Shown here piece by piece: positions 8,632 to 25,525 of a DNA stretch of 64,000 bases (the first letter of the stretch is position 1; the number at the start of each line of letters is the position of its first letter). The position numbers and the translations under genes are program-made. The notes beneath the pieces are model-generated. The model was not told the DNA's origin and did no database searches. It was given only the letters and a program-made list of their open reading frames with translations. Source of the DNA: Sphingobium cloacae (GTDB lineage Bacteria > Pseudomonadota > Alphaproteobacteria > Sphingomonadales > Sphingomonadaceae); contig NZ_AP017655.1 of the NCBI RefSeq assembly GCF_002355855.1, forward strand, positions 3,041,001 to 3,105,000, given 5' to 3'.

Positions 8632-8649
8632 TGGTGCCCAGAAGAGGAC
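8632..8649. other. attL: 18-bp direct repeat of the tRNA-Leu 3' end
   Basis: TGGTGCCCAGAAGAGGAC is identical to 25508-25525. The flanks differ on both sides, as expected of a site-specific recombination core. Confidence 0.85.
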
Positions 8650-8663
8650 GGACAAGTAATACT

Positions 8664-8682
8664 CAAGTATTTGAAATACTTG
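8664..8682. repeat. 19-base palindrome just inside attL
   Basis: CAAGTATTT-G-AAATACTTG is a perfect palindrome starting 15 bases inside the island. It is a good candidate for an integrase or excision-factor binding site. This role is inference. Confidence 0.5.
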
Positions 8683-9022
8683 GTAGATATACATTTCGGA
8701 GATTGAAATGCCACTTGCCATGCCCCCAAATCAGATTTGCAGTAAAGATTTGGGTCTTTGGGCGGTGTTTCAGGCACATTCACCTTGTATCATTATGCCT
8801 CTTTGGCTTCAAGGTTGAATTGCATAATCTGCCATTCCGGGGTGATGGATTCGCGCTAATGCAGACCCCTAATAATCTGGAAAAAGGTGCCGTTATGGAA
8901 AACGGAACTGAACGCCGTCCGCCTCTGGCGTGACCGGCGTGCCCCCAACGCCGGGAGCATTCAAATTGCGCTCGTTCATTTTTTGTTCTATTGAGGAAAC
9001 TCACACGCGGCGTTGAGGCAAT
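8683..9022. other. AT-richer non-coding leader at the left end of the island
   Basis: About 340 bases with base composition clearly lower in GC than kdp or the core genes. No convincing gene: the open frame 8634-8933 has no ribosome binding site and a composition unlike protein. It probably holds the promoter of tcmP, which starts at 9023, and sequences needed for recombination at attL. I cannot place -35/-10 boxes with confidence. Confidence 0.4.
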
Positions 9023-9418
9023 ATGAGCGCGCAAAAGTTTTTCGAAGAGCGAACCGATCAGTCTGAGGTCAAGGCTCGTATCGTAAGCAAATATTTTTCG
9101 ACGTGGGCGCAGGTCGTTATGCCAACTGTTGCCAGATCAGGCGGCAAGATCGCTTATATGGATCTTTATGCAGGTCCAGGGCGCTATCGGGATGGAGCTG
9201 CCTCCACACCCTTGCTGGTTCTTCAGGCAGCGATTGATCATCCGCAAATGTCTCAGATGCTCACCGCTTATTTCAATGATGCTGATGGAAACAATACGTC
9301 CACGCTTCAAAATGAAGTCGGAAAACTGCCCGGGTTCGAAAAACTGCGTTACAAGCCCAATATAACCTGCGGTGAAGTGGACGACGATGCGGCCACGTAT
9401 TTCAATGAAACTCGGCTA
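9023..9418 (+). pseudogene. tcmP: tcmP 5' part (three-Cys-motif partner protein), interrupted by insertion sequences
   Basis: Codes for the first 132 residues of a TcmP-family protein (KFFEERTDQSEVKARIV, then MDLYAGPGRYRDG, which resembles an SAM-methyltransferase-like nucleotide motif). The native frame stops at CTA (9416-9418), where the TA target of an insertion sequence lies; beyond it the frame runs into IS630-end sequence and terminates after three foreign codons. Joining 9418 to 11409 restores an uninterrupted 371-residue frame through RLVPSFSFVDPFGYKG. TcmP proteins are defined by their neighbourhood to a three-Cys-motif protein, here DUF5131 downstream; the biochemical role is not known to me. 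The AT-richer codon use suggests acquisition from another host. Confidence 0.85.
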
Positions 9419-10558
9419 GTGCACTGACTCAGTCGGTTGGTACAGGCAGCCGCCTGAGTTTGGCGAGAATGGTCTCGGCCGGCTTGGTCCAGACGAAGGG
9501 CTTAGGGTCGGCGTTCTGCTTTCGGATGTAAGCGCTAATGGTGTCCTGGAGGTCGACGACGGAGGTGAAGACGCCGCGCCGGATGACCCTTCGGGTGAGC
9601 GCCGAGAAGAAGTTCTCGACGGCGTTGAGCCATGAGCCCGAGGTCGGGGTGAAATGGAACACCCAGCGTGGATGATCGGCGAGCCACTCCAGGACCTTCG
9701 GATGCTTGTGGGTGGCGTAGTTGTCGAGGACGGCGTGGATCACCTTGCCGGCAGGAACGGCGCGCTCGACGGCGTTGAGGAACTTGATGAACTCCTGGTG
9801 CCTGTGCTTGGGCATGCAGCGACCGACGACTGTGCCGTGGAGGACGTCGAGCGCGGCGAACAGGGTGGTCGTGCCATTGCGTTTGTAGTCGTGCGTCATT
9901 GTTCCGCATTTGCCCGGCTTCAACGGCAGACCGGGTTGGGTTCGGTCGAGGGCCTGGATCTGGCTCTTCTCGTCGATCGAGATGACGACGGCGTGAGCCG
10001 GCGGGGCCATGTAGAGACCGACGATGTCTTCGACCTTGGCGGCGAAGGCGGGGTCGCTCGATCTCTTGAAGGTTCGCAGACGGTGGGGTTGGAGGTGATG
10101 GACCTGCCAGATGCGCTGGACGGTTCGGAGCGAGACGCCGAAGGCTTTGGCCATTGCGCGGCCGGTCCAATGGGTCACGGCACCGGGCGGTTCGGAGCAG
10201 GTCAACGCAACGATCCGTGCGACGACGGGCGCGGCGATCGGCGCCGTACCGGGCTTGCGCGTCTTGTCGCGGAGAAGACCATCGACGCCTTCCTCAGCGA
10301 AGCGCTGTTGCCAGCGCCAGACCGCAGGTCGGCTGACGCCGGCGCGGCGGGCCACTTCGAGCACCGGCAAGCGGTCGCTGGAGAGCAGCACGATCCTGGC
10401 GCGCAGCACATGCTTGAGCGGGCAGTTGCGGTCGCCGACGATTTGTTCAAGCCGAGCACGGTCGGCGGCGTTCAAGAGGATGTTGACGGTCTGGGCCATG
10501 ACGGGAGAGTCGCATGTCCTAGACGATTTGTGAATCTCCCGTCTGCGTCATTGCACTA
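9417..10558. mobile_element. IS630-family insertion sequence
   Basis: Bounded by TA dinucleotides (9417-9418 and 10557-10558), the IS630/Tc1 target. The ends just inside are imperfect 18-bp inverted repeats (9419-9436 and 10539-10556, 15 of 18 matching). About 1.14 kb with one transposase gene filling it. It sits directly against the IS5-family element. Confidence 0.9.
9429..10499 (-). CDS. IS630-family transposase
   Basis: 356 residues: N-terminal paired helix-turn-helix region (ARRAGVSRPAVWRWQQRFAEEG), then a DDE domain with Asp in VISIDEKSQIQALDR, Asp in HAVLDNYATHKHP and Glu in SWLNAVENFFSAL. The distance between second Asp and Glu fits the IS630 DD34E type. It cuts at TA and catalyses element movement. 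The frame appears intact, so the element could be active. Antisense to tcmP. Confidence 0.93.
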   Translation of the reverse strand: MAQTVNILLNAADRARLEQIVGDRNCPLKHVLRARIVLLSSDRLPVLEVARRAGVSRPAVWRWQQRFAEEGVDGLLRDKTRKPGTAPIAAPVVARIVALTCSEPPGAVTHWTGRAMAKAFGVSLRTVQRIWQVHHLQPHRLRTFKRSSDPAFAAKVEDIVGLYMAPPAHAVVISIDEKSQIQALDRTQPGLPLKPGKCGTMTHDYKRNGTTTLFAALDVLHGTVVGRCMPKHRHQEFIKFLNAVERAVPAGKVIHAVLDNYATHKHPKVLEWLADHPRWVFHFTPTSGSWLNAVENFFSALTRRVIRRGVFTSVVDLQDTISAYIRKQNADPKPFVWTKPAETILAKLRRLPVPTD

Positions 10559-11406
10559 GGTTTCGTGGACAAAGCTTGACTGGGGACTCGGTCGCTGATT
10601 CAAGGCTGGCTTTTGGAGGCAGCCTTGGGCGAGCGGATCGGCGTTACGGACGAAGAATGGGAAGTGATCGGGCCGCTGCTGCCGCCTGAGCACGGTCGTG
10701 GATGCCGCCCGGCGCAGGATAATCGCCCTTATTTCGAGGGCATGATGTGGATTGCGCGGACCGGCGCGCAATGGCGGCACCTGCCGGACGAGTATGGCAA
10801 GTGGAACAGCGTGTTCCGGCGCTATCGACGATGGGTCACGACCGGCGTGTTCGATGCCATGCTCGAGACGCTGGCCGAACTGGCGGGGCGCGACGCGGCC
10901 GCCGACATGATCGACAGCACGGTGGTCCGGGCACATCATTGTGCCGTCGGCATAAAAAGGGGACTCAGCAAACCGAGGCGCTTGGCCGATCGCGAGGCGG
11001 CTTCACGACGAAGCTCCACGCAAGGTGCGATGCCAGGGGCCTCCCCCTCGGCTTCGTGCTGACACCCGGACAGGCGCACGATGTGCAGGGCTTCGCCCCA
11101 CTGTTCCGTATGATAACCGACCGGATCAAGGCCTTCCTGGCCGACCGGGGCTACGATGCCGATGCGATCCGCGAAGAGATCGAGGCGGCGGGTGTCGAGG
11201 CGGTGATCCCTGCCAAGGTCAACCGGCGCAATCCCGCCCCGCACGACCGCGCGAAATACAAATGGCGCAACCTGATCGAACGCCTGTTCAACAAACTCAA
11301 GAACTGGCGGCGCATCGCGACCCGCTACGATAAAACCAAAGAATCATACCTCGGCTTCGTAGCGCTCGTGTCAGTCAAACTCTGGATACCCTTTGTCCAC
11401 GAAACC
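10559..11406. mobile_element. IS5-family (IS427-like) insertion sequence
   Basis: Perfect 16-bp terminal inverted repeats: GGTTTCGTGGACAAAG at 10559-10574 and its complement at 11391-11406, flanked by TA on both sides (10557-10558, 11407-11408). 848 bp, typical of the IS427 group, whose transposase is made from two overlapping frames. Confidence 0.9.
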
Positions 11407-11409
11407 TAG
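10613..11409 (+). CDS. IS5-family transposase, made by -1 frameshifting
   Basis: Frame A (from about 10613, TTG; start uncertain) holds the DUF4096-like N-terminus (VTDEEWEVIGPLLPPE) and the first catalytic Asp in DMIDSTVVRAHH. Frame B, one base back, holds FLADRGYDADAIRE and the Glu in NLIERLFNKLKNWRRIATRYDKT. The frames overlap at an A5G4 run (10954-10962), a likely programmed -1 slip. The stop codon TAG at 11407-11409 is formed partly by the duplicated target TA. Confidence 0.85.
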
Positions 11410-12128
11410 TTCCGTCTTTTTCATTCGTAGATCCGTTTGGTTACAAAGGATTATCTCTAAAGATCGTGCAGGGAGTTATAAAAGATTGGGGATGTGATTG
11501 CGTGTTTTTCTTCAATTATAATAGGATTAACGCAGGCATCAGCAATCCGGGTGTTAAGCAGCATATGGACGCGCTTTTTGGGGAAGAGCGCGCAAATGCC
11601 CTGCGCGCAAAACTGCCTGGGCTCAGTCCAGAATTGCGAGAGGCTGCGATCCTGGAGGCGCTGGCGAATGAGATTCATTCGTTGGGTGGCAAATTTGTCT
11701 TGCCCTTCACGTTCAAGAACAGCGAGGGCACACGCACTTCCCACAAGCTGATATTCGTGTCGAAGCACTTCAAAGGCTACGAGATCATGAAAGATATCAT
11801 GGCAGCCGAGAGCTCGACAACGGACGAAGGTGTTCCATCACTCACGTACTCACCAGCAGATGCCTCAATGCCGCTTCTTTTCTCGCTTGCGCAACCGATG
11901 TCCAAATTGAAGGGGATGCTGCTCGAACACTACGCTGGCCAAACATGCTCTCTCGATGAAATCTACGAAAGCCACAGCGTGGGCAAGCCATATATCAAGA
12001 AAAACTATCGAGAAGCGTTGAACACTCTGGAGGCAGCTGGTCAGGTATCGGCGTATTCAACCAAAGGAACGCGCCGAAAGGGCACTTACCCCGACCACGT
12101 GAAGATACAGTTCAAGGGCGGTATCTGA
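11409..12128 (+). pseudogene. tcmP: tcmP 3' part, displaced from its 5' part by two insertion sequences
   Basis: The frame immediately after the IS5-family element reads VPSFSFVDPFGYKGLSLKIV, then FFFNYNRINAGI and a C-terminal part with a winged-helix-like segment (about the last 80 residues: KPYIKKNYREALNTLEAAGQV). It continues tcmP 9023-9418 exactly in phase. As it stands it lacks its own start except an internal GTG at 11466 without a clear ribosome binding site. Its stop is two bases before the DUF5131 start, so the two formed one operon before disruption. Confidence 0.85.
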
Positions 12129-12130
12129 AC

Positions 12131-12925
12131 GTGGCAACGAACTCATCAATTGAATGGACGGAAGCGACTTGGAACCCGGTGGTTGGTTGCACGGTAATCT
12201 CACCAGGTTGCACAAACTGTTATGCGATGCGCATGGCGCGGCGGCTTGAGGCCATGGGGCAGCCCAAGTATTCAGGCACTACGCGCTTGTCGGGCGGCCG
12301 CCCGAAGTGGAATGGGACGGTGCGTATCGACGAGGAGAGCCTGAATCTTCCTGCCAGATGGCGCACTGGTAGAATGATTTTCGTCAACTCAATGTCTGAC
12401 CTTTTCCATGACGCCGTGCCTTTGAGGTTCATAAGGCAGGTTTTCGAGACGATGGCGGCGACCCCGCAGCACACGTATCAAATTTTGACCAAGCGGGCCG
12501 AGCGTCTGGAGGAGTTGGCTTTAGAAATCGATTGGCCGAAAAATGTGTGGATGGGGGTAAGCGTCGAGAATTCAGACTATCTCTACCGCATTGACCATCT
12601 CCGCAGGACTAGAGCTCAAACTAAATTTTTGAGCCTCGAACCTTTGCTTGGGCCTCTCGAAAACATGAATCTGCAGAGCATCGATTGGATCATCGCGGGT
12701 GGCGAGAGTGGCCCTGGAGCAAGACCGGTGGAGCCTGGCTGGGTTCGTTCGATCCGTGACCAATGCATTGCAGAAGGGGCGGCGTTTCACTTCAAGCAAT
12801 GGGGCGGCGTCAACAAGAAGAAGGCCGGACGGATCCTAGATGGCAGGACTTGGGACGAATTTCCCCAATCTCGTCGGGAAGCCATGACTACTTCGGAGCT
12901 GAAAAAGCTCGGCCTGGTTGACTGA
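12131..12925 (+). CDS. Three-Cys-motif protein, DUF5131 (phage Gp37/Gp68 family)
   Basis: 264 residues, GTG start two bases after tcmP. The N-terminus has NPVVGCTVISPGCTNCYAM, a CxxxxxxCxxC cluster that would bind an iron-sulfur cluster or metal; the fold is related to radical-SAM proteins. Further conserved motifs: VNSMSDLFH, ILTKRAERL, WMGVSVEN and IAGGESGPGARP. The family is found in phages and islands, often with TcmP; its reaction is unknown to me. The gene is intact although its partner is broken, and its promoter may have been lost or replaced by the insertions. Its stop directly abuts the hipA stop. Confidence 0.88.
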   Translation: MATNSSIEWTEATWNPVVGCTVISPGCTNCYAMRMARRLEAMGQPKYSGTTRLSGGRPKWNGTVRIDEESLNLPARWRTGRMIFVNSMSDLFHDAVPLRFIRQVFETMAATPQHTYQILTKRAERLEELALEIDWPKNVWMGVSVENSDYLYRIDHLRRTRAQTKFLSLEPLLGPLENMNLQSIDWIIAGGESGPGARPVEPGWVRSIRDQCIAEGAAFHFKQWGGVNKKKAGRILDGRTWDEFPQSRREAMTTSELKKLGLVD

Positions 12926-14176
12926 TTAGCAATTTTCGATTGCGAGACGGAAGCAGGTGGCAAAGCGTCCGCGATCAGCAGCACTGACTCCGGCTTCGGT
13001 GAATTTCTCCTCCCAGCCTCCGGCCACCTGCATGCGCATGTCTTCGACCATGGCTTGGGCCTGGTCGGGCGCGAGGTCGAACCCGGCAGCGCCAGCGAGA
13101 GCATTGGCGACAGTGGCGTCCCGGCCTTGCGGGCCGACGCCCAGCACCAGGCGTCGTTCAAGGCCGACCTGCGGCTTAGGCACGACATCGTAAAGCGGTG
13201 ACAGTCGCCAACCTTTGCCGTCGAACAGGAAGCCATGGTTGCGCAGGTGGTCGTCGTCATTGGTTACGAGGATGTTGAACACCATGCGCCGGAACAGTTC
13301 GTGGAGATCGCGGCGCACTTCGGTGCCATGCTGGCGAAGAACGGCCGCGAGGTCCGCGTAGCTGTAGCGGCTTACTTCGCTCTCGTGCGCGCCGAGCATG
13401 GTCAGGCCGGAGGCGAAGGGCCGCCGCTCCAGCCAGTTGCCGTGCGACTGGCGATCGAACCGTTCGATCAGATAGATGTCGCGTTCCAGCACGCGCCTGA
13501 AGTCGAGCGCCGGAACGTCGAGGCCACAGGTCGCAGCAAGGCGCATGGTCGCCAGCTCGACCCCGCATTCGGGGAAACTGTCATTGCGGGCCTGGAACTT
13601 GGCAATCCACGGCTGGCCGTCAATTTCGGTCGCAGCCTTTGGGCGCGCGCCACCGAGTGACGAACCGGCGGTGAGCAACCGCCGCAGGTTCTCGTCGAGC
13701 TGATCGACATGCTGCGCGCGCTCGGCAGCTTCGGCCAGTTCTTCCAGGGTAAAGTGTTCGCCCGGCGCATTGCCATCGCCCCACGGCGTGATGCGCTCCG
13801 GACGCTCGGGCGTGGGGCCGAATGCCAGTGCGCCCACCCGGTAATCGCCAGAGGCCAGGATCAGATCGATATCGCTCGGCAGGCGGTCGCCCATCGCCTT
13901 GTACATCAGGTATTGGCCCCAGCCATCGGGAGCTGCGTCGCGAATGCCGCCGAAGACGGCAAAGCCTTCTTCGGTCCGGAATGTGCGTTCAGTGCCCGGC
14001 TCGTGAAGCGGCAGTGCCACCGGATCGACAGGAACGCGATCCGGACGGGCGAGGTAGCGGCGACCATAGGCGAAAGTCGCGAACTGGTTGCGCGGTTCGT
14101 CAGTCATCGTCAGCAGCCCAGCTGGAACAGGGCCGCCTGCGAGGTGAACGAACACATAGGTGCGCACCGTTGCCAT
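12926..14176 (-). CDS. hipA: HipA-type serine/threonine kinase toxin
   Basis: 416 residues. HipA toxins phosphorylate a cellular target (glutamyl-tRNA synthetase in E. coli) and slow growth. Seen: N-terminal HipA_N-like region (GLLTMTDEP, FGGIRDAAPDGWGQ), the Ser/Gly loop SSLGGARPKAATEIDG including the equivalent of the autophosphorylation loop, catalytic NDDDHLRNHGFLF and the metal-binding SPLYDVVP. All kinase motifs look intact. Five bases downstream of hipB, so co-transcribed and probably neutralised by it. The gene ends with no gap against the convergent DUF5131 gene. The actual phosphorylation target is unknown. Confidence 0.9.
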   Translation of the reverse strand: MATVRTYVFVHLAGGPVPAGLLTMTDEPRNQFATFAYGRRYLARPDRVPVDPVALPLHEPGTERTFRTEEGFAVFGGIRDAAPDGWGQYLMYKAMGDRLPSDIDLILASGDYRVGALAFGPTPERPERITPWGDGNAPGEHFTLEELAEAAERAQHVDQLDENLRRLLTAGSSLGGARPKAATEIDGQPWIAKFQARNDSFPECGVELATMRLAATCGLDVPALDFRRVLERDIYLIERFDRQSHGNWLERRPFASGLTMLGAHESEVSRYSYADLAAVLRQHGTEVRRDLHELFRRMVFNILVTNDDDHLRNHGFLFDGKGWRLSPLYDVVPKPQVGLERRLVLGVGPQGRDATVANALAGAAGFDLAPDQAQAMVEDMRMQVAGGWEEKFTEAGVSAADRGRFATCFRLAIENC

Positions 14177-14181: not shown

Positions 14182-14523
14182 TCAGAAGTCCAGCTCGTCG
14201 CTGCTCACGGCATGCGTCGTCTTGGGCAGCCGGGCAAGGTCTTCGCTGATGCCTGCCCTGTCAGTATCCGGGGCGACGAGTTCGGCGAGGCGCTGGGTCA
14301 TGCCGAACACATGGAGCGCACTTGCCAGCACGGCCAATCCCACGGTTGCATCGCCGGCCTCAAGGCGCTGAAGCGTCTGTACCGAAACCAGCATGCGTTC
14401 TGCCATCAACCGCTGCGGCAACTTGCGGCGGCGGCGGGCGATGGAAATGTCCTTGCCCAGCTGCGCAATCGCGCGCTGGCTCTGGGGCGGCAGGCCGCTG
14501 GCAGCTCTGGAGGCGCGTGACAT
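14182..14523 (-). CDS. hipB: HipB-type helix-turn-helix antitoxin and repressor
   Basis: 113 residues with a Cro/CI-type helix-turn-helix (about 22-80: LGKDISIARRRRKLPQRLMAERMLVSVQTLQRLEAG). First gene of the leftward hipBA operon. Members bind an operator ahead of the operon and cover HipA. The matching inverted repeat lies 14 bases upstream of the start. Confidence 0.88.
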   Translation of the reverse strand: MSRASRAASGLPPQSQRAIAQLGKDISIARRRRKLPQRLMAERMLVSVQTLQRLEAGDATVGLAVLASALHVFGMTQRLAELVAPDTDRAGISEDLARLPKTTHAVSSDELDF

Positions 14524-14795: not shown

Positions 14796-15713
14796 ATGAC
14801 AGAGAGGTCAGCGCCCTCAGTATTTCCGCAGCCGGACGGCGCGTTGGCGTTGGACGAGTCATTTGCCCGATTCTGCAGCTTGAAACGCACCCAACCGACT
14901 GCAGACCTGCTGGGGGGCAAGGTGCTCGACTGCATGCTGGTCGCGGCAACCGAGTGCGAAACGGCACACAACCGGTATGCCGCATTTGCTTTTCCAGGTG
15001 CTGCATTCGGCATTGCCGGAGCGCTGGAATACATTCGCAACCGCCGCTTTCTCGCGTTGGCTATCGGCCTTGCTGGCGCAGCAGCAGCCTCGCCCCTGTT
15101 GCGGGCAAGAACCCATCGCACAGAACCATCAAAGGCAAAGCTGCTCGACACCGCCACGCTCAAGCAGCGCCGCTTCGTCATCGCCATGCTCGAATTTCAG
15201 GAACACCTCGCCGCTGGTCGCATCGCGGCCTTCGAGCGGATCACGCCTCATGAGCGTGACCGCCAATACCGCGAAGTTCACCCGAGCCTGTTCAGGGCCG
15301 ACCATGCGCTCGCGGCAATTGTCGGCGGCAATCGCTATTGGGCGTGCGCAAGGGTTCGCTCATCCTTGCAGCACCAGTTGCCGACAACCGACTTGCTGTT
15401 CGAGATCGGCAGCATCCGTGCCCGCGCCTACCTCGATGGCAAATATCTTGTCGAAGCAACGTCCGAGAGCTTTGCGCGTGCAAAGCAGGCAATCATGGCG
15501 CGTTTTCCCAATGATCGAACCCTGCACGCACATCTCGACAGCATCGAGAAAATGCGTGCCCTCGATCCGACGAAGTTTCCATCGCCTGCCGCCAAGGCGG
15601 CGGAAGTTGCAGGCCATATCGACAGGGCAAGAACGCAGACGCTGCTGGCCGAGGGGCTTTTGGATTACTTCGAGAACAGGATGAGGCAGGTAGAAGTCGA
15701 AGGGCTCGACTAG
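14796..15713 (+). CDS. Hypothetical protein of the island, possible membrane hairpin
   Basis: 305 residues, not recognised. Around residues 62-105 there are two hydrophobic stretches separated by NRRF (FPGAAFGIAGALEYI and LALAIGLAGAAAASPLL), which could form a membrane hairpin; the rest is soluble and rich in Ala/Arg. It starts 272 bases after hipB and is read away from it, toward the mobilization block. The region 14573-14795 between them holds only the hip operator and probable promoters. A role in mobilization or regulation cannot be judged from the sequence. Confidence 0.6.
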   Translation: MTERSAPSVFPQPDGALALDESFARFCSLKRTQPTADLLGGKVLDCMLVAATECETAHNRYAAFAFPGAAFGIAGALEYIRNRRFLALAIGLAGAAAASPLLRARTHRTEPSKAKLLDTATLKQRRFVIAMLEFQEHLAAGRIAAFERITPHERDRQYREVHPSLFRADHALAAIVGGNRYWACARVRSSLQHQLPTTDLLFEIGSIRARAYLDGKYLVEATSESFARAKQAIMARFPNDRTLHAHLDSIEKMRALDPTKFPSPAAKAAEVAGHIDRARTQTLLAEGLLDYFENRMRQVEVEGLD

Positions 15714-15791: not shown

Positions 15792-16046
15792 ATGGAACAG
15801 CCACCCCTCTCCGGCTTGCTGACGACGCAGGACCTGATTGCCCTCGTCCGGCTCAGCCGCACCTCGATATACAGAATGACACGGCAGGGGCGGTTTCCGC
15901 CAGCCTGCTCGATAGGCAACGGACATATCCGCTGGCGCGAAGCCGATGTCCGCGCCTGGATGGCTGAACTGCCATCGCAGGCCTACCCGCAGGGTGACAG
16001 CGAACCACGCTATGACCCGCCTCACAGCCCCCGGCGGCTGTCATGA
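15792..16046 (+). CDS. AlpA-like excisionase/regulator (MerR-type HTH)
   Basis: 84 residues with the AlpA pattern: LLTTQDLIALVRLSRTSIYR, a short wing and GHIRWREADVRAWM. AlpA proteins are small DNA-binding proteins of islands and prophages that control integrase or excision. ATG at 15792 is the first gene of a row in which every start overlaps the previous stop. Likely controls this mobilization operon or acts as excision factor for the integrase at 24138. Confidence 0.8.
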   Translation: MEQPPLSGLLTTQDLIALVRLSRTSIYRMTRQGRFPPACSIGNGHIRWREADVRAWMAELPSQAYPQGDSEPRYDPPHSPRRLS

Positions 16047-16318
16047 GCGGCGGCCCCGTTTCCATCCCGCAGGCCGATGCCGAGCTGCATCCGGTGATCG
16101 AGCGGATCACCGGCCATTCGGTCGATATCGAGTTCCTGTTCTGGCCAATCACTGGACCGGAAGGCGAATGCTGCGGCGGCCATCTCAATGTTGGCAGCGC
16201 ACGCATCTGGCTTGACCCGGACCACGCCAGCAATCTCGCCGACCGGGTTCGCGCGGCCATCGACCAGGCTGTCCTGAGCAACTTCCCATCTCCCACCAAT
16301 CAACGGAGATTGTCATGA
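16043..16318 (+). CDS. Small hypothetical protein of the mobilization operon
   Basis: 91 residues, family not recognised. Contains EFLFWPITGPEGECCGGHLNVG and an IDQAVL tail. Its start ATG overlaps the stop of the AlpA-like gene (ATGA), showing translational coupling. No membrane segment or signal peptide. Confidence 0.65.
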   Translation: MSGGPVSIPQADAELHPVIERITGHSVDIEFLFWPITGPEGECCGGHLNVGSARIWLDPDHASNLADRVRAAIDQAVLSNFPSPTNQRRLS

Positions 16319-17398: not shown

Positions 17399-19215
17399 GC
17401 CGGGAGCACGATTTCGCCGCCCGTTCGCATTCGCTGTGGCGGATGCGGATGGCTCATTTGCAGCAACGCTTCGGCTTCTTCTGGCGGCTCGTCTTGGGCT
17501 GCACGCTGTGCGGTTCAGCAATTGCGGCCCAGCTGTTCATGGTTCCGCGCACGACTGTTCTGGCGGTCCAGTGTCTGGGCGCCAGACTGCTGATCTTGCT
17601 GGGTGATATGGTCGGCAAAGAACTGCGCATGAACGCCACGCTCGGCGGCGAGAAGATGACCTTCCACGCCCGCGTTGTGGCCTATTCCGACTACTGGCTG
17701 CGGCCCTACGACCGTATGCTGGACTGCCTGTTCTGGGGCGCTCTGGCCGGGCTTGCCCTGGGCTTGGTGGCCATCTGGCTGATCCAGCGGACCATGTCAT
17801 CGCAGGGCGAGCAAACGCTCGGCGACAGGGTGCTGGGGGGCACCCGTGTCATTGCGGAAGCGGAGCTTGCCGCGCGTATCACGCATCATGCCGATCCGGC
17901 CTCGCTGGCGATTGGACCGGTGCCCGTTCCGCGCGGGATCGAGACCCGGCATTTTGCCTTTCTCGGCACCACCGGCAGCGGCAAGACCACCGTCCTGCGC
18001 CAGATGCTCGACCGCATCGAAGCGCGCGGCGAAGCGGCGCTGGTCTATGACACCAGCGGCGAATTCATCGCCCATTATTACAATCCCGAGCGGGGCGATG
18101 TGATCCTCAATCCGTTCGATGCCCGCTGCGCCTTCTGGTCGCCCTTCGACGAGATTTCCCATCCCGCCGATGCCGACCGGATCGCGCGTCAGCTCGTCTC
18201 CGAAACCGGCAGCCAGGACGACGATGTCTGGCTGGAGACGAGCCGCATCCTCGTTGCCAACATGCTCCGCTCGCTCTGGGCCGAAGGCAACTGCAACCTT
18301 GAAGCCCTGCTCGAAGCCTTGCAGGTCAGGAGCAAGGAACAGCTCAAGCACTGGCTCGGTCATACCTCGTCGGCCCGGACCTTTGCCGATGACGCCGACC
18401 GAGCCACCGGCAGCGTCCTGTTCATGCTCGCCAAGGCCGCGAACCTGATCCAGTTCCTGCGGATCGATGATGGCGGCGCGGAGCGCTTTGCCTTCCGGAA
18501 CTTCATAGCCGGGCTGGACGGGCATGAAGGTGCAAAGCCGTGGATCTTCGTGCCGCGCAAAGAGGACTATTTCGAGGCAGCCAAGCCGCTCATGGCCTGC
18601 TGGCTGGAATGCGCGGCAAGCGCCGTCCTCGGCCTTACGCCTTCGCCAGACCGGCGCATCTGGTTCGTGCTCGACGAGCTGGCTGATCTGCCGCGCGTCG
18701 AAAACCTGGCCCGGTTGCTGCCTGAAGGGCGCAAGTTCGGCGCGGCGATCGTGCTCACCTTCCAGGCCTTGGGACAGATGCGCAATCGCTACGGCGCAAA
18801 CATCGCCGAGGCCATGCTCGCCTGCTGCAACACCAAGCTGTTCTTGCAGACAGTCGACCGGGAAACCCGCCAGTGGGCCAGCCAGACCATCGGTGATTGC
18901 GAGGTGGAAATGCGGGTTGCCACCGACACGCTTTCTATCGGCAACGAAGTGCCGCGAACGACCGTCGCGACCCAGCGCGCTTTCCGCGCTGCCGTGCTCG
19001 AAAGCGAGCTGCGGCTAGCCCCGCACCAGGGCTACCTGCTGCTGCCCGATGGTCTGCCCGTGGCGCGCATCGGGCTGACCGCCGATCACATCCGGGCGCG
19101 CGGGACTGCCCGCCAGCCTGCCTTTGTCGCTGGCGATCCAGCGGGCACGCTGTGGAGCCGGGTGAGCGAAATTGCCCGTAACGCCGCGCCCGATGCCAGG
19201 CCGGGGCCGGTCTGA
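17395..19215 (+). CDS. traD: Type IV coupling protein TraD
   Basis: 606 residues. The coupling ATPase links the relaxosome to the secretion channel of a helper element. Two membrane helices near the N-terminus (about 25-50 and 105-130), Walker A GTTGSGKT at 191-198, Walker B-like IWFVLDELADLP, and TrwB/TraD family motif LTFQALGQM. I start it at ATG 17395, overlapping the previous stop; the frame is open upstream but that part is not conserved-looking. Ends overlapping the traA start by one base. Confidence 0.9.
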   Translation: MSREHDFAARSHSLWRMRMAHLQQRFGFFWRLVLGCTLCGSAIAAQLFMVPRTTVLAVQCLGARLLILLGDMVGKELRMNATLGGEKMTFHARVVAYSDYWLRPYDRMLDCLFWGALAGLALGLVAIWLIQRTMSSQGEQTLGDRVLGGTRVIAEAELAARITHHADPASLAIGPVPVPRGIETRHFAFLGTTGSGKTTVLRQMLDRIEARGEAALVYDTSGEFIAHYYNPERGDVILNPFDARCAFWSPFDEISHPADADRIARQLVSETGSQDDDVWLETSRILVANMLRSLWAEGNCNLEALLEALQVRSKEQLKHWLGHTSSARTFADDADRATGSVLFMLAKAANLIQFLRIDDGGAERFAFRNFIAGLDGHEGAKPWIFVPRKEDYFEAAKPLMACWLECAASAVLGLTPSPDRRIWFVLDELADLPRVENLARLLPEGRKFGAAIVLTFQALGQMRNRYGANIAEAMLACCNTKLFLQTVDRETRQWASQTIGDCEVEMRVATDTLSIGNEVPRTTVATQRAFRAAVLESELRLAPHQGYLLLPDGLPVARIGLTADHIRARGTARQPAFVAGDPAGTLWSRVSEIARNAAPDARPGPV

Positions 19216-21962
19216 TGGTTGCCTCGGTCTCGGCCCTGTCGAGCGCCGGTCAAGCCGCAAGCTACTACGAAGCCGACGACTACTATGCCGAAGGTGGTCT
19301 TGCCCCGTCCGAATGGTTCGGCGAGGCCGCCGGGGCACTGGGTCTGGACGGAGAGGTAGACCGCGAGCAGTTTGCGGCCCTGCTTGAAGGGCGGGTTGGC
19401 GACGAACAACTGGGCACCGCGCGCGATGGCAAGGTCGAGCATCGACCCGGTTGGGATATTACCCTATCCGCACCCAAGTCCGTATCGATCATGGCCGAGG
19501 TCGCAGGTGACAAGCGGCTGATCGCGGCGCACGGCGCGGCGGTGAAGGTGGCACTGGCCCATGTTGAAAACCACATGGCCGCAACCCGCGTGCGCGAGGG
19601 TGGTGAGGTCCAGCGCCAACCCACCGGCAATCTTGCCATTGCCACCTTCCGCCACGCGACAAGCCGGGCGCAGGACCCGCAGCTTCACACCCATGCCGTC
19701 GTCATCAACGCCACCCAGGACAAGGATGGCAAATGGCGCAGTCTGGAGCCGCGCGCCATCTACCAGCTCCAGAAGGAAATCGGCGCCATCTACCGCCAGG
19801 AGCTGGCGCATGGCGTTGCCGAGCTGGGCTACCGGATCGAGCCAGGCAAGGACGCTATGTTCGAGATTGCCGGAGTGCCGGACAAGGTGATCGAGGCTCT
19901 GAGTCAGCGCACGGCGGCGATCGATGCCCGGCTTGCCGAGCGGGGCACAAGCCGGGAGGAGGCGAGCGCCGCCGAGAAGCAGATTGCCGCGCTCGATACC
20001 CGCGAGGCCAAGACCCACGCCGATATTCGCGAGTTGCGCGCTGACTGGCGCGCGACAGCCGATGCCAGCGGGTTCGACGCCGGGGCGCGGGACCGGCTTG
20101 TGGCTGGTGCAATAGGACAGGCGCGGGACATCGCGACGGCGGCCAGCCCCGAGCTGCTGGCGCGGCATGCCGTTTCCTTTGCCGCTGCCAAGCTGGCTGA
20201 ACGCGAAGCCGTGATGTCAGCCAGCACGCTGGCGCGCGAGTCGGGGGACTTTGCCTTCGGCAAGGTCGGTCATGGCCAGATCAGCGCGGCCATTGCCGGG
20301 GCCGAGCAACGCGGCGAGCTTGTGCCCCGGACATTTCTGGACCGGCGCGGCGCGGAGTTTGCCGGTTTCACCACCCCGCAAGCCATGGAAACCGAACGCA
20401 CCATGCTGCGGCTTGAGGCTGCCGGGCGGGGTATGGCCGAGCCGCTCGCCAGCCCGCTGGCGGCAGCGCGAACGGTTGAGCGCGCAGCGCGGCAATCGGC
20501 CCGTTTGGGATATGCCTGGACCGACGACCAGAAGCGCGGGGCCACCGACCTGCTGACTTCGCGGGACCGAATTGCTGCCGTTCAGGGCTACGCCGGAACC
20601 GCCAAGACCACTACTGTTCTCGCGACCTATGCCCGTGAAGCAGAACGGCACGGGCTTTCGGTCACGGCACTTGCGCCCACCGCATCGGCGGCGACAGTTC
20701 TGGGAGAAGCGCTAAGTCTTCGCGGTGATACCGTTGCCCGGCACCTGCTCACGCCAGAAGGGCGCAATGCGGGCAAGAATGCTGTCTGGATCGTCGACGA
20801 AGCCTCGATGCTCTCGGCGCAGGACATGGCAAAGCTGATGGCCAGCGCTGACAAGGCGGGAGCCCGGCTCGTTCTTGTCGGGGACATGAAGCAGCTCGGT
20901 TCGGTCGGCGCAGGTGCGGCCTTCGCACAGTTGCAGGCGGGAGGCATGACCACAACCAGGCTGGCCGAAGTCGTTCGGCAGACCAATGCCGAAACGCGCG
21001 AAGCCGTCATGGCATCGATCGAGGGCCATGCTGGCAAGGCTCTGGCTGCGCTGGATCGGGGCGGCGGCAAGGTCATCGAAGGGGCCACGCCGAAAGAACG
21101 CTTCGTGGCCATGACGCAGCATTACCTGTCCCTGTCACCCGCCGAGCGAACGCGGACATTGGTGATCGAGCCTTCGCGCGAGGGCCGCGACACGCTCACC
21201 GGCATGATCCGGGAACACTTGTCTTCGCGCGGGGAGCTGTCGCGGGACCGACTTCAGTTTGCCGCTTTGGAGGCCAGGGGCATGACCCGTGCCGAAGCGC
21301 GCGAAGCGGCGAGCTATGCCATCGGCGATGTCGTCCGGTTCAACCGCGACTATGCCGCCAAGGATGTCCGCCGGGGCGAGGCTCTGACCGTCAGTGGAGT
21401 TGATCCGGAGCGGAACCGTGTTGCTCTGGCGAGCCGCGATGGCCGGGCGATTAACTGGCATCCCCGGCAATGGGGGGCGAGCAAGGCCGAGGTGTTTGAA
21501 CCCAAGCCCATGGACTTGCGCACAGGTGACCGGGTGCAGTTTACCCGCAACGAACGCGACGCAGGACGGATCAACGGACTTGGCGGGACAGTGACCGGCA
21601 TCGACCCATCAACCGGTCAGGCGACCCTGAAACTGGCGAATGGCCGCGAGCAGCGGCTCGACCTCACCAATCCTCGCGACACCCATCTGCGCCATGCCTA
21701 TGTCCAGACCGCCCACGCCGCGCAGGGCCAGACCGCCGAGCGCGTCCTGATCCACGCCGACAGCCGTTCAACCAATCTGGTCGATCAGAAGATGCTCTAC
21801 GTCGCGTTGTCACGGGCCAGAGGCGAGGCGGTTGTTGTCACCGATGACAGGGACCGGCTTATCCGGGCAATCACCGAGCGGGCGGGGGAGAAGCAGACTG
21901 CCATGGCAGCGGCAGTGCCCGAAGTCGGCAAATCCAAGGCAATGGGGGCTGGTCTCGGGTGA
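19215..21962 (+). CDS. traA: MobF-family relaxase/helicase TraA
   Basis: 915 residues. Nicks the origin of transfer and unwinds the strand for conjugative mobilization. The N-terminal relaxase has candidate nucleophile tyrosines in SYYEADDYYAEGG (about 16-24) and the HxH metal site in QLHTHAVVIN (His158, His160). A RecD2/TraI-like helicase follows with Walker A GYAGTAKTT (458-466), Walker B WIVDEASML, and the C-terminal motif AYVQTAHAAQGQT. Full set of motifs, no frameshift. Shorter than plasmid F TraI, common for IMEs. No mating-pair genes follow. Confidence 0.92.
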   Translation: MVASVSALSSAGQAASYYEADDYYAEGGLAPSEWFGEAAGALGLDGEVDREQFAALLEGRVGDEQLGTARDGKVEHRPGWDITLSAPKSVSIMAEVAGDKRLIAAHGAAVKVALAHVENHMAATRVREGGEVQRQPTGNLAIATFRHATSRAQDPQLHTHAVVINATQDKDGKWRSLEPRAIYQLQKEIGAIYRQELAHGVAELGYRIEPGKDAMFEIAGVPDKVIEALSQRTAAIDARLAERGTSREEASAAEKQIAALDTREAKTHADIRELRADWRATADASGFDAGARDRLVAGAIGQARDIATAASPELLARHAVSFAAAKLAEREAVMSASTLARESGDFAFGKVGHGQISAAIAGAEQRGELVPRTFLDRRGAEFAGFTTPQAMETERTMLRLEAAGRGMAEPLASPLAAARTVERAARQSARLGYAWTDDQKRGATDLLTSRDRIAAVQGYAGTAKTTTVLATYAREAERHGLSVTALAPTASAATVLGEALSLRGDTVARHLLTPEGRNAGKNAVWIVDEASMLSAQDMAKLMASADKAGARLVLVGDMKQLGSVGAGAAFAQLQAGGMTTTRLAEVVRQTNAETREAVMASIEGHAGKALAALDRGGGKVIEGATPKERFVAMTQHYLSLSPAERTRTLVIEPSREGRDTLTGMIREHLSSRGELSRDRLQFAALEARGMTRAEAREAASYAIGDVVRFNRDYAAKDVRRGEALTVSGVDPERNRVALASRDGRAINWHPRQWGASKAEVFEPKPMDLRTGDRVQFTRNERDAGRINGLGGTVTGIDPSTGQATLKLANGREQRLDLTNPRDTHLRHAYVQTAHAAQGQTAERVLIHADSRSTNLVDQKMLYVALSRARGEAVVVTDDRDRLIRAITERAGEKQTAMAAAVPEVGKSKAMGAGLG

Positions 21963-21966
21963 AGGC

Positions 21967-21981: not shown

Positions 21982-22184
21982 GTGGCCACGGCATCTCTCG
22001 TCCCCCCGTTGGAATGAACTGCTGCCTGGGTGACGGCCCGTGCCGGGCGGGATCAACAGCCTGCCCGCTCCATTCGGGCTCACGCCCTCCCGTGTTGGCT
22101 GTTCCGCGTCACCGCTGACCCACCCGGCCAATCCGGCCCGTCCCTTCATCCGCGTTCCCAACGACAGGACGAAGGATTTTCACC

Positions 22185-22997
22185 GTGGCCAGCACTCAAA
22201 CCGCCAGCATTTACGACACCATCACCAACCAGATCATTGCCTCACTTGAAGTCGGGGTCGGGAAATTCTCGCTCCCCTGGCATCGCAGCAATGCCCCGCT
22301 GTCCCGCCCGATGAACGCGGTGACCCGGAAGACCTATCGCGGCGTCAACGTCCTCGCCCTCTGGGCTTCTGCCGAAGCGCAGGACTTCGGACATGGCCTC
22401 TGGGCAACCTATCGCCAGTGGCAGTCGCTTGGCGCTCAGGTTCACAAAGGCGAGAAGGCTTCGCCGATCGTGTTCTACAAGGTCTTCGACAAAGTCGATG
22501 GCACCGAGGCGGAGGAACGGGAAGGTTCGGCCCGGGTCTTCGCGCAGGCGTCGCATGTGTTCAATATTGGCCAGGTGGATGGCTATGCGATGCCGGAACT
22601 TCCCGAAGGCGCAGACTTCGATCCGATCCCGAACGCAGACGCTTTCGTTGCCGCAACCGGCGCCACCATCCGCATCCAGGGCGAAAGTGCCCATTACACG
22701 CCCTCGACCGACACCATCACCATGCCGGAGAAGCAGCTCTTCTTCGCCACCGAATCAGGCAACGCAGGGCAGAACTGGTACGCCACGCTGCTCCATGAAC
22801 TGACGCATTGGTCCGGAGCGGAGCACCGTCTCGCACGAACCTTCGGAAAGCGGTTCGGTGACGACGCCTATGCGATGGAAGAGCTGGTCGCCGAACTCGG
22901 ATCAGCATTTCTGTGCGGCGACCTTAGCCTGTCGTCCAAGCCGCGCCCCGATCACGCTCGTTATGGCGATTATCGGCATCCTTGCCCCACGGCTTGA
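22185..22997 (+). pseudogene. ardC: ArdC-type antirestriction protein, C-terminus replaced
   Basis: GTG start with AAGGA upstream. The N-terminal ssDNA-binding domain (SIYDTITNQIIASLE, WHRSNAPLSRPMN, YRGVNVLALW) is complete and the zincin domain shows HELTH at 204-208 with a downstream Glu (MEELVAELGSAFLC). ArdC proteins protect entering DNA. After KPRPDHARY the usual C-terminal helices are missing; instead about ten residues are read from antisense HNH gene sequence before a stop. The metal site remains, so some activity is possible, but the protein is cut short by about 30-40 residues compared with the family as I know it. Confidence 0.8.
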
Positions 22998-23529
22998 TGT
23001 GGCTGGCGGTCAGCAGACGCGGATCGGCGATGCCGGTGATGCAGCAGGTCTCTTCATAGTTGGCCAGGACTGCGCGGCGGAAGAAGTCCTGGCCGACGCG
23101 CTGGTTGACCAGCGCCTGGGTAGTCGATGCGCCTTGGTAGGGCTCGAACCGGAATTCGCTCGGCTTGTCCTTGAGCCGGTTGAGCGGCGGCGCGGGTTCG
23201 CCCAGTTCAACCTGGGCAGCCCACATGCTTTCCGCCCGCGCCACAAGGCCGGTCCAGTTCTGGCCGAACTCGGCGTAAGTTGTCCGGTCGAGCTGTGACG
23301 CTCCGGCCAGGCCTTTGCGCCCGCTCTCGGTGATCTTGGGGTCGAGGCTGGCGAAGTTGCAGAGCTTCATGGCGACCGAACTGCTCGACCTTCCCAGCGC
23401 AGCGGCGAGCTGCTGGATTTCAGGATTGCCCGAATGCAGCTTTCCAAACGGCAACTGGAAATAGAGGTAGAGCGCGAGAACCGTCTCCTCCTCGCTCCAG
23501 CGTTTTCGTAGGCTGCCTTCGTCCCCCAT
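22924..23529 (-). pseudogene. HNH endonuclease-like gene, 3' end deleted
   Basis: From ATG 23529 (MGDEGSLRKRWSEEETVLAL) it matches the restriction-type HNH family with an N-terminal helical domain (FGKLHSGNPEIQQLAAALGR, SVAMKLCNFASLDP) and the start of the nuclease domain (RVGQDFFRRAVLANYEETCCITGI, ASHIKPWGKDADNRHN). The part carrying the rest of the HNH motif is missing; after RHN the frame reads antisense ardC. The catalytic site is therefore incomplete. Length 201 residues against roughly 280-300 in the family. A frame upstream of 23529 is open but not protein-like. Confidence 0.75.
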
Positions 23530-23779
23530 GGCGGCGTTGTGCGCGAGGCCGTCCAGGGGCGCAAGGGGCTTGGGGGCGTTCGGTTTTCCGGCGGGCGGAG
23601 GGGCCTTTCGACCCGGATGGCGCGTTTTGAGCACCGGACTTGGCCGCACGCGTTCAGCCGTCAATGTCCGGCCCGCGCCGGTTCGCGGGTGCTCACCCGT
23701 GTTGGGCATGACGACTGCCCTTGGCCGTGCGGCCTGTCGGTTTGGTGCAACGAGCCACCAGATACGAAAGGACAAATCC

Positions 23780-24007
23780 ATGGCCCGCAACAATCCCGCA
23801 CCGGCAGCCGAAGCAAAGGCCCCGGACTTCATTGCCTGGCACGTCGCCAACCGGGGCGAGAAGGCTTACTGGACCAAGGTCGGAGCGGCTTGGTTCCATC
23901 GCGACCGCAAGGGCGTTTCGCTTCAGCTGGAGGTCGTGCCGATCAATGGCCGGATCGTTCTGCGCACGCCGCTCGACGATGAAACCAGGGAGCAGCCGGG
24001 CGCCTAG
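23780..24007 (+). CDS. Small conserved-looking hypothetical protein of the island
   Basis: 75 residues (APDFIAWHVANRGEKAYWTKVGAAW, then KGVSLQLEVVPINGRIVLR). Similar short proteins with an AYWT..GAAW..RDGKG pattern sit near ardC in sphingomonad mobile elements, to my recollection; function unknown. ATG at 23780 follows AAAGGA. It lies in a 250-base gap after the HNH start. Confidence 0.65.
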   Translation: MARNNPAPAAEAKAPDFIAWHVANRGEKAYWTKVGAAWFHRDRKGVSLQLEVVPINGRIVLRTPLDDETREQPGA

Positions 24008-24137
24008 CGCCCGGCCTTCGGGCAAAAGAAGACCCGCCTGGTGCGCATCGTCGAGAGGCGTGGCGGGTTCTGTTGTCGGAATAGTACGGAACTGGGGTGC
24101 GCGTGTCCACTGGTCGCACCATGACGGGTGAATTGCC

Positions 24138-25331
24138 TCAGCCTTTGAGCCGGATTTCGTCGAGATAGTCGCTCCACCACTGCGCCATCCGGACGCGCTC
24201 ATCCCAATAATGGCCCCGGTTGTACGTCCCGCGAATGGCATTGCTATCGCCATGTGCCAGGGCGCGTTCGATCGCGTCAGGGTGCCACAGGCCACATTCA
24301 TTGAGCATGGTCGAAGCAGTCGAGCGGAACCCGTGCGCAGTCATTTCGTCTTTGGTGAAGCCCATGCGGCGAAATGCGGCGTTGATGGTGTTTTCGCTCA
24401 TCGGCCGCAGACGGGTATGGAAGGCGGGGAACATGTAGCCCTTGCCGCCGGACACTTCCTTCAGTTCCTTGAAGAGTTCGACCACCTGTCGTGACAGTGG
24501 CACGGCATGAGTGCGACGCGCTTTCATCTTGCCCGCCGGGATTGTCCAAATCGCTTTTTCGAGGTCGATCTCGTCCCAGTCGCCATGCCGCATTTCGCCG
24601 GGGCGCACGAAGATGTGCGGGGCGATCTTCAGCGCAAGCTTGGTGATTGGGTAGCATTCGAAGCTGTCAATAGCGCGCAGCAGCTCGCCGAGCTTGTCGG
24701 GTTCGAGGATGGCAGCATAGTGCCGCGCCTGCGGCGTCAGCAGCGCGCCTTTGAGGATTGCGGTGGGATCGATGGCGCAGCGCCCGGTTGCGGCCCCATA
24801 GCGAAAAACGCGGCTTGCGAACGAGCGGCATTTCTTGGCCGTCTCTCTGTTGCCCCTCGCTTCCAGCTTCTTGAGCGGAGCCAGCATCATTTGCGGATCG
24901 ACATCCGAGATTGGCATGTTGCCGATTGCAGGCTTGAGCAAATCAAGGAACCAGCGCGCCTTGAGCAGCGTGCCTTCGGCCCGGCCTTCGCCGACCATCT
25001 TTTCGTCGATGTACTCGCGGGCCACCGATTCGAAGGTGTTGGCAGCGCTGATTTTGGCCGTGGCCTTTTCGCGCTTCCGCGTGAGGGAGGGGTCTTCGCC
25101 GTTGGCGATCCTTACGCGCAACTCGTCGCGCATCTGGCGGGCCTTCTGCAGGCTGACTTCCGGCCAAGCGCCGAGCGCAATGCGCTTTTGCTTGCCGCCA
25201 TAGTTGTACTTCAGCCGCCAGAGTTTCGAACCGGTCGGGAACACCTCCAGGTAGAGGCCTCGCTCATCGGTCTTCTTGTAGGGGGTGTCTCCAGCCGAAA
25301 AGGCTCGGATTTGCAAGGCGTTAAGCGACAT
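24138..25331 (-). CDS. int: P4-type tyrosine integrase
   Basis: 397 residues; integrates and excises the island at tRNA-Leu. DUF4102 arm-binding domain at the N-terminus (MSLNALQIRAF, RGLYLEVFPTGSKLWRLKY, LGAWPEVSLQKAR), SAM-like core-binding domain (about 100-190), catalytic domain with Arg in VRPGEMRHGDWDEID, HxxR in TAHGFRSTAS, the second His in ALAHGDSN and Tyr in TYNRGHYWDERVRM. The frame is open to 25493, but the family starts at MSLNALQ, giving ATG 25331 with AAAGGT upstream. Read away from the tRNA, 177 bases from the attachment site. Confidence 0.93.
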   Translation of the reverse strand: MSLNALQIRAFSAGDTPYKKTDERGLYLEVFPTGSKLWRLKYNYGGKQKRIALGAWPEVSLQKARQMRDELRVRIANGEDPSLTRKREKATAKISAANTFESVAREYIDEKMVGEGRAEGTLLKARWFLDLLKPAIGNMPISDVDPQMMLAPLKKLEARGNRETAKKCRSFASRVFRYGAATGRCAIDPTAILKGALLTPQARHYAAILEPDKLGELLRAIDSFECYPITKLALKIAPHIFVRPGEMRHGDWDEIDLEKAIWTIPAGKMKARRTHAVPLSRQVVELFKELKEVSGGKGYMFPAFHTRLRPMSENTINAAFRRMGFTKDEMTAHGFRSTASTMLNECGLWHPDAIERALAHGDSNAIRGTYNRGHYWDERVRMAQWWSDYLDEIRLKG

Positions 25332-25332
25332 T

Positions 25333-25408
25333 TCGTGGCATGACCTTTCTTGGAAAAGGGCAAAAACGGGCCGATGGCCCTTTCCATGCCACGAATCCTC
25401 GTGGCATG
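25333..25408. promoter_or_regulatory. Three copies of CGTGGCATG in the integrase leader
   Basis: TCGTGGCATG at 25333-25342 (overlapping the region just before the start codon) and again at 25399-25408, the latter as one arm of a perfect inverted repeat CATGCCACGA-ATCC-TCGTGGCATG (25385-25408). The sites lie between attR and the start codon. Candidates: arm-type integrase sites or an operator by which the integrase or the AlpA-like protein represses int. Confidence 0.5.
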
Positions 25409-25507
25409 GGCTGAAACGGCGTGAAACACGGAGCATCAAAACCTGCCTGAAAATGGCAGATTTCTGCGGTTTTTTCAATGATTTTGATGCCACTCCCGCA
25501 GGAGTTT

Positions 25508-25525
25508 TGGTGCCCAGAAGAGGAC
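25508..25525. other. attR: 18-bp repeat within the tRNA-Leu 3' end
   Basis: TGGTGCCCAGAAGAGGAC, identical to 8632-8649. It covers the encoded CCA, the discriminator base and the 3' acceptor strand. Confidence 0.85.

Follow-up and report, generated by a model that had tools for sequence, protein, structure and literature searches.

In a 64,000-nucleotide stretch of the Sphingobium cloacae genome (contig NZ_AP017655.1, positions 3,041,001 to 3,105,000; the whole stretch is called the window hereafter), positions 8632 to 25525 very probably hold a 16,876-bp integrative and mobilizable element (IME), which we call element A. In the scheme that we propose, its integrase would act on a short core in tRNA-Leu(CAG), an AlpA-like factor would aid excision, the relaxase TraA would nick the DNA, and the coupling protein TraD would dock to the channel of an F-type helper. 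This copy seems to have lost cargo, and its core frames and sites look intact. Element A has its own integrase, direct-repeat attachment sites at its target, its own relaxase and no mating-pair formation channel, the combination that defines an IME; the complete type IV secretion system (T4SS) of an integrative and conjugative element is absent. The 18 open reading frames (ORFs) of the element were scanned against Pfam, with further scans against NCBIfam and PADLOC. TraA has a TrwC domain together with helicase domains (Pfam, NCBIfam), as MOBF relaxases do. The integrase has the N-terminal arm-binding domain (Arm-DNA-bind_3) that is also found in P4-like satellites, and the 18 ORFs gave no Pfam match to P4 capsid-size, replication or packaging genes; PHROGs was not searched.

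Ends of the element and its target gene

The ends of element A are set by the sequence TGGTGCCCAGAAGAGGAC, which occurs exactly at 8632–8649 and 25508–25525; the identity spans exactly 18 bp, because the flanking bases differ at both sides of each copy. The right copy forms the 3' end of a tRNA-Leu(CAG) gene, which ARAGORN places at 25508–25594 on the minus strand, and the adjoining gene encodes a P4-type integrase with Pfam integrase domains. The distance from 8632 to 25508 is 16,876 bp. An earlier note on this DNA had proposed an island of about 16.9 kb bounded by this repeat, with the integrase beside the tRNA 3' end, and all of these points held. The same note had raised two doubts: that the repeat might be widespread by chance, and that relatives might have the same 17 kb at this place. 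As regards the first, the core had just two matches in the window at up to three mismatches, and none of 100 dinucleotide-preserving shuffles of the window contained two or more. In the whole genome (4,547,566 bases, at most two mismatches), it occurred three times, as the two copies of the element and as a copy with two mismatches at C1:3028334. On the shuffles and the genome-wide count, we rejected a chance origin of the repeat. The third copy marks an earlier integration site like that of element A, because the bases to its left (L004:10095–10331) are 86–89% identical, over 221–237 bases, to the sequence adjoining tRNA-Leu in six relatives (G002, G007, G009, G013, G014 and G016).

As regards the second doubt, sibling ends in relatives enclose other interiors, and comparison with these siblings indicates that both ends of the 16,876-bp unit belong together. 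A contig of a Sphingomonadales metagenome-assembled genome (L072) has tRNA-Leu(CAG) and an integrase 90% identical to that of element A, with another exact copy of the core at a distance of 8.06 kb. The right end of L072 is 86% identical to window positions 24151–25612 and its left end is 92.5% identical to 8632–8792 (161 bp). What the interiors have in common is limited to 404 bases of a hipB-like stretch (78%) and 245 bases of orf15 (79%), and these lie in L072 at another place or in another orientation than in element A. An exact second core was present in the fetched stretches of seven of the 15 relatives mapped at tRNA-Leu (G113, G114, G116, G118, G125, G126 and G128); none was found in those of the other eight, in the case of G127 because the contig ends. 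One pair of arms is shared by element A, G113, G114 and L072, the left arms of G113 and G114 being diverged forms of that in the window, and a second pair by G116, G118, G125 and G126; the left arm of G128 is its own. The arms co-vary as a pair with the integrase, as predicted for the attachment sites of one element, and the boundaries are therefore 8632 and 25525. It is extremely unlikely that the left repeat belongs to the neighbour only and that element A ends elsewhere. The neighbouring islands have the same core and one copy could be read either way, but the sequence inside 8632 is the left end found in L072 and, in diverged form, in G113 and G114, and each of these three has the same kind of right arm; we rejected this alternative on the evidence of the paired arms.

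Positions 1800–9881 of L072 form an 8-kb sibling with the same ends and integrase, in which traA, traD and mobC were undetected; it is possibly further reduced or immobile.

Tandem array at the tRNA gene

Between C1:3028334 and the tRNA there are, on our reading, three or more units in tandem, the last of which is the 16.9-kb element A; its left neighbour, here called B, is thus another island and not core chromosome. B encodes a second, different relaxase (named from its translation), and over about 2.9 kb this relaxase stretch has 73.8% identity with sequence outside the element of G118. Left of 8632 lies a kdp operon, named from ORF translations, with only kdpE domain-scanned. A degenerate core with four mismatches lies at L004:14281 and adjoins another integrase gene. 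Four of the seven bounded elements in relatives (G116, G125, G126 and G128) have one more integrase beyond the far core. The last two observations, together with the core copy at C1:3028334, would also suit a larger moving unit, in which A travels with the relaxase region and kdp operon of B as a composite. However, the cores that bound A are exact and the outer ones have two and four mismatches, which should favour the excision of A by itself, and we regard the composite as very unlikely.

An integrase-like match (fragments included) stood beside tRNA-Leu(CAG) in 18 of the 23 genus relatives compared, and none was found at the threshold in G004, G010, G012, G022 and G023. G004 does have an open frame whose translation resembles another kind of tyrosine recombinase, and in G021, the 24th genus relative, outside the 23-genome comparison, the match coordinates place an integrase beside the tRNA. 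The comparison of the tRNA-Leu locus among relatives, which the earlier note had recommended, yielded sibling ends with other interiors; an empty site of the same lineage was not found at the relatives' tRNA-Leu loci, which speaks against element A as a mobilizable unit. A BamE gene (named from sequence) beside tRNA-Leu in G022 was considered as the ancestral left flank and rejected; in the S. cloacae genome its copy, at C1:2517363, is separated from the tRNA by about 549 kb, and the empty site of the lineage could therefore not be shown.

Some further features of these arrays were recorded. The kdp potassium-uptake genes (window 1–8485, L005), placed between the shared core and the relaxase region of B, look like cargo of that island, and in the neighbour of G118 the relaxase region is much nearer the end than in B. 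At L004 12880–15706, two divergent integrase genes surround the degenerate core, and nearby opposed integrase pairs also occur in G009 and G018. In Sphingomonas sp. 35-24ZXX (L183 809–3250, equal to L073 7545–9986), two tandem units of about 1.2 kb stand beside tRNA-Leu. Each ends in the tRNA core (two mismatches), with similar ends and different middles (ORFs of 197 and 163 amino acids) and without an integrase-sized frame; they are possible integrase-less satellites of the tRNA-Leu dock.

A candidate origin of transfer

We assign 16849–16905 as a candidate origin of transfer (oriT), consisting of a hairpin and a nic-like block. In an alignment of the window with 14 relatives (L166, which is without mobC, was left out), the block was present in the window and in all 14 related modules, upstream of mobC. 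The hairpin reads CGATGC-TNC-GCATCG, or CGATAC-TGC-GTATCG in L154, and is followed by TACACACCYCACGCACNNGTGCA; the surroundings have otherwise diverged. All 84 hairpin cells in the 14 distinct rows pair, and the window block, folded as single strands, did better than its own shuffles (z scores of −2.37 and −2.13). The oriT block was also found in 13 of the 15 tRNA-Leu relatives. Within the S. cloacae genome, the 23-base block occurs once at up to three mismatches, so no resident helper was recognised by a shared nic sequence.

The minus strand of the block reads TGCGTGGGGTGTG, a run of 13 bases that also occurs in the oriT of F (NC_002483), with agreement at 13 of 16 positions. In 200 mononucleotide shuffles of the 2.3-kb F region, the best agreement was 12 of 16, the 16-mer query having been picked after the likeness was seen. 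The nic-region run of F-like oriT, GCGTGGGGTGTG, is present in the element, and with respect to the transfer genes it has the strand and direction seen in F. By analogy with what we take to be the exact nick position of F, the nick is predicted between 16885 and 16886 on the minus strand. According to the part of the published work available to us, oligonucleotides of the F oriT contain the same 13-base run (PMC4949242).

Several points weigh against this assignment. Covariation in the hairpin is limited to one compensatory pair, which 27 of 500 shuffles matched, and the hairpin therefore leans on conservation more than on covariation. The block of L154 was not better folded than its shuffles (z = −0.23), that of G110 was unmatched, and the contig of G127 ends before it. 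The strong hairpin lies 3' of the predicted nick, and the 5' side has only a 4-bp repeat (GCAC/GTGC), unlike F, in which the inverted repeat is 5' of the nick according to the accessible portion of the source (PMC5422253).

Secretion channel and possible helpers

The earlier note had described a MobF relaxase and a coupling protein without a secretion channel, a description borne out by the Pfam and NCBIfam matches (Table 1) and by the failure to find channel families inside the element. Genome-wide searches gave no VirB4 (PF03135) or TraC (PF11130) match within it, and no T4SS gene was found among its 18 ORFs with Pfam. Elsewhere in the genome, TraC_F_IV matched at C2:184089 and C3:105139 (about 480 bits) and at two places on C1 (about 218 bits). 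Around the C2 and C3 genes, 66 ORFs were picked and 40 were scanned. Both contigs have TraC, TraG_N, TraN, TraF and TrbC; among the matches listed, TraH was found on C2 (best 25 of 31 families) and TraK, TraV and TrbI on C3. Contigs C2 and C3, with their F-type secretion genes, are possible helpers.

In 15 genomes, some with short contigs, no VirB4/TraC match lay within 60 kb of the MobF module on the same contig, the nearest being about 63 kb away in G109; P-loop_TraG was not found inside the mapped element in any of the 15 tRNA-Leu relatives and occurred elsewhere in 14 of the 15 genomes. Help from a VirB- or Trb-type channel in place of an F-type one is possible, although on the unlikely side. 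The S. cloacae genome has two VirB4-family matches, at C1:291986 (26 bits) and C1:2810394 (22 bits; cut-off 21), and three relatives with MobF modules (G066, G071 and G093) gave no TraC_F_IV match, so same-cell F-type help is not universal. Both the last observation and the score of TraD against the NCBIfam model TraD_Ftype (303.8 bits, below the cut-off of 521.35) count against the scheme proposed here. Conversely, F-type models give the relaxase and the coupling protein their best scores, the nic-like sequence corresponds to that in F, and C2 and C3 bear the two high-scoring TraC_F_IV genes.

With an F-type helper, transfer is predicted from the sequence to run as follows. The P4-type integrase would recombine the 18-bp core inside the 3' end of tRNA-Leu(CAG), and the tRNA would stay intact because of this position of the core; the AlpA-like factor would promote excision. 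On the resulting circle, TraA would nick the minus strand near 16885/16886, at the F-like site that lies upstream of mobC, and the cargo side would enter the recipient first and traA last, as in F. The element's own TraD may then dock this TraA-DNA complex at an F-type channel supplied by a co-resident replicon, for which C2 and C3 are candidates.

Gene content and reduction of this copy

The features of element A are given in Table 1. The mobC gene likely encodes a relaxosome accessory protein, as judged from its position. The DUF5131 protein and TcmP (window 9023–12925) resemble the PADLOC candidate defence systems PDC-M41 and PDC-M30, TcmP weakly; a literature search found no useful paper on TcmP function.

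Table 1. Features of element A and its target gene (window coordinates)
Feature	Position	Strand	Evidence
Left attachment copy, 18 bp	8632..8649		Exact repeat
Left-end arm, specific to the integrase subtype	8650..8792		92.5% in L072 over 8632–8792; similar in G113 and G114
tcmP 5' part (three-Cys-motif partner protein), interrupted	9023..9427	+	TIGR04474 positions 2–123 of 263
Transposase inside tcmP, presumably IS630-like from its domain set	9429..10499	-	DDE_3, HTH_23
Second insertion sequence, DDE_Tnp_1 transposase	10555..11410	+	Perfect 20-bp terminal inverted repeats
tcmP 3' part	11466..12128	+	TIGR04474 positions 148–262 of 263; GMT-wHTH
DUF5131 protein beside tcmP, candidate defence gene	12131..12925	+	PF07505 341 bits; PADLOC PDC-M41B 373 bits
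HipA-like protein	12926..14176	-	HipA_C 173 bits
HipB-like HTH protein	14182..14523	-	HTH_3
orf15	14796..15713	+	No family match (Pfam, NCBIfam, PADLOC)
AlpA-like factor, likely excision (directionality) factor	15792..16046	+	HTH_17, Phage_AlpA
orf16a	16043..16318	+	Sub-threshold Pfam match only
orf16b, backbone gene	16315..16815	+	No family match; poorly conserved, 22–62% in relatives
oriT candidate	16849..16905	-	Hairpin 16849–16871 and nic-like block 16883–16905
mobC, small conserved gene beside oriT candidate	17024..17398	+	No Pfam/NCBIfam match; kept in family
traD, type IV coupling protein	17428..19215	+	TrwB_AAD_bind 430 bits; Walker A; start uncertain, ORF opens at 16978
traA, MobF relaxase-helicase, 915 amino acids, open frame	19215..21962	+	TrwC 324 bits; MobF equivalog NF041492 313 bits, cut-off 100
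ardC, antirestriction, 3'-truncated	22185..22997	+	ArdcN, MPTase-PolyVal
HNH nuclease gene, 3'-truncated	22924..23850	-	HNH_2; PADLOC HNH 212 bits
Deletion scar joining ardC and HNH	22961..22964		Alignment stops in relatives
orf23, backbone gene	23774..24007	+	No family match
P4-type tyrosine integrase, open frame	24138..25493	-	Arm-DNA-bind_3, Phage_int_M, Phage_integrase; start maybe near 25331
Right attachment copy inside tRNA gene	25508..25525		Exact repeat, ARAGORN tRNA
tRNA-Leu(CAG), target gene	25508..25594	-	ARAGORN

Element A is a reduced family member: the seven members with a resolved far end measure 24.3–39.5 kb, compared with 16,876 bp here. In the window, the HNH and ardC genes overlap tail to tail. 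DNA alignments on the HNH side end at 22960–22961 in L074, L077 and L098, and ArdC alignments end at residue 260 in all nine mapped relatives that bear ardC. The 20 closest ArdC proteins are 291–301 amino acids long, compared with 270 in the element, with 96% of the query matched, and the HNH relatives in L074 and L077 (276 amino acids) have a different, longer tail where the window frame departs. In all six mapped relatives with both genes (G112, G113, G116, G119, G121 and G126), these are separated by about 8–14 kb. The simplest reading is that one deletion took out the cargo slot between the two genes (slot 2) together with both gene ends. The insertion sequences in tcmP leave model positions 2–123 on one side and 148–262 on the other.

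Such damage raises the alternative that the island is a decayed relic, with real attachment sites but unable to excise or move. The truncation of ardC and HNH and the two insertion sequences in tcmP are in keeping with decay, and the loss of the ArdC end is in itself a mark against a fully functional element; moreover, no close copy was found in the genus, the best other integrase match among the 24 genus relatives searched being 62%. Against this, the frames of the integrase, the AlpA-like gene, TraD and TraA (915 amino acids, the usual length) are open and look intact, as do the oriT candidate and both 18-bp copies. We therefore regard the relic as unlikely, and prefer the reduced but mobilizable IME.

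Distribution of the family in sphingomonads

We took the 80 best-kept integrase relatives from GTDB genomes: 66 stand beside tRNA-Leu(CAG), six at an exact core without a tRNA and one at tRNA-Thr, and seven could not be resolved. Of these 80, 23 were given to the relaxase search: 18 genomes had a relaxase match at E ≤ 1e-100, and in 15 traA was on the integrase contig, about 6–29 kb downstream and in the opposite orientation (L073, L076, L077, L078, L079, L081, L084, L085, L089, L091, L096, L097, L099, L100 and L104); the pieces fetched for mapping have lengths consistent with the contigs so named. The gene order of these 15 is integrase, slot 1, orf23 and HNH, slot 2, ardC, traA, traD, mobC, oriT block, orf16b and AlpA, and slot 3. 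Certain backbone genes were undetected in some of the 15 mapped relatives: ardC in six (G115, G118, G122, G125, G127 and G128), orf23 in three (G110, G114 and G128), and HNH in the same three and G130. In G127, the genes beyond mobC fall outside the contig.

Within the genus, 57 of 94 genomes, including that of S. cloacae, had a relaxase match at E ≤ 1e-100. Among the matches listed outside the window, 17 (in 16 genomes) were 59–81% identical, two of them cut short (G045 and G065), and the others 34–37%. We fetched 15 of the 17 loci (L154–L168): traD stands beside traA in all 15, mobC was found in 14 (L166 is a 7.9-kb contig), and a P4-type integrase lies within the stretch in seven. The tRNA genes in these stretches were Cys in five, Pro in three and Met in one, with none in six; L154 has the exact tRNA-Leu core. 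In a database of 5.8 billion proteins, 3322 of 7994 scored candidates matched TraA at E 1e-100; the 120 matches listed were 73–93% identical, and 915 amino acids is the usual length among them.

From these data, it is somewhat probable that sphingomonads of several genera share an IME family that brings along its own complete set for F-like DNA processing (MobF relaxase, small accessory protein, coupling protein and F-like nic site) and takes from F-type conjugative replicons only the channel. On this view, its members would use the 18-bp tRNA-Leu core as a dock for tandem stacking and would exchange cargo, with candidate defence genes among it, at three fixed slots. The eight of 23 genomes without traA on the integrase contig (five without a match at E 1e-100 and three, L074, L087 and L095, with traA on another contig) count against the IME reading.

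The interest of the family lies in its combination, across several sphingomonad genera, of a MobF relaxase with a coupling protein of its own and a nick site that can be predicted. As base-exact ends, an oriT prediction and helper candidates come together in one genome, helper dependence is directly testable. Sphingomonads are known for pollutant degradation, and the tRNA-Leu IME family may spread defence genes among them.

Comparison with known systems

P4-type islands have a P4-type integrase beside a tRNA and an AlpA-like regulator, and element A is like them in both respects; it differs in that P4 capsid-size and replication genes were unmatched and that a conjugative relaxase and coupling protein are aboard. 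With the F plasmid it shares a TrwC/TraI-type relaxase with helicase, a TraD-like coupling protein, and the 13-base nic run with its strand and orientation. It is unlike F in that pilus and channel genes were not found, the relaxase has 915 amino acids, the hairpin is on the other side of the predicted nick, and it integrates at a tRNA.

Among the open-access papers listed, none described a sphingomonad IME with a MobF relaxase at tRNA-Leu. The plasmid pPDL2 of Sphingobium fuliginis, as described in the available part of its report (PMC3516476), is likewise integrative and mobilizable, comes from the same bacterial group and uses a tRNA 3' end; unlike element A, it is a replicating plasmid with a seryl-tRNA site and a different integrase module of two divergent units, and tra genes were undetected in it. 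The IMEs in the accessible sections of a 2017 review (PMC5704250) resemble element A in having their own integrase and relaxase, no conjugation channel and tandem accretion at a shared site. According to these sections, a MobF relaxase had not been found in any canonical IME known at the time; two putative IMEs of Streptococcus do have a VirD4 coupling protein of their own, alongside a MobC relaxase.

The IMEs of Mesorhizobium, integrated at tRNA and other sites, are like element A alphaproteobacterial and have relaxases called MOBF (PMC8627217, 2021; in the portion at hand, as for the following statements). One of them, IMEMsp M2A.F.02-2, at tRNA-Thr, carries an isolated MOBF gene and, going by a general statement in that paper, a virD4-like coupling gene. 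In contrast to element A, they mostly have Ti-like traACD loci and not the TrwC-plus-TrwB/TraD layout, and tRNA-Leu is not among the sites named. Because the 2017 review has no MobF IME and the MOBF IMEs of Mesorhizobium are mostly of the Ti-like traACD type, element A is a known kind of element, an IME, in a variant that appears to have been little described in the open-access literature.

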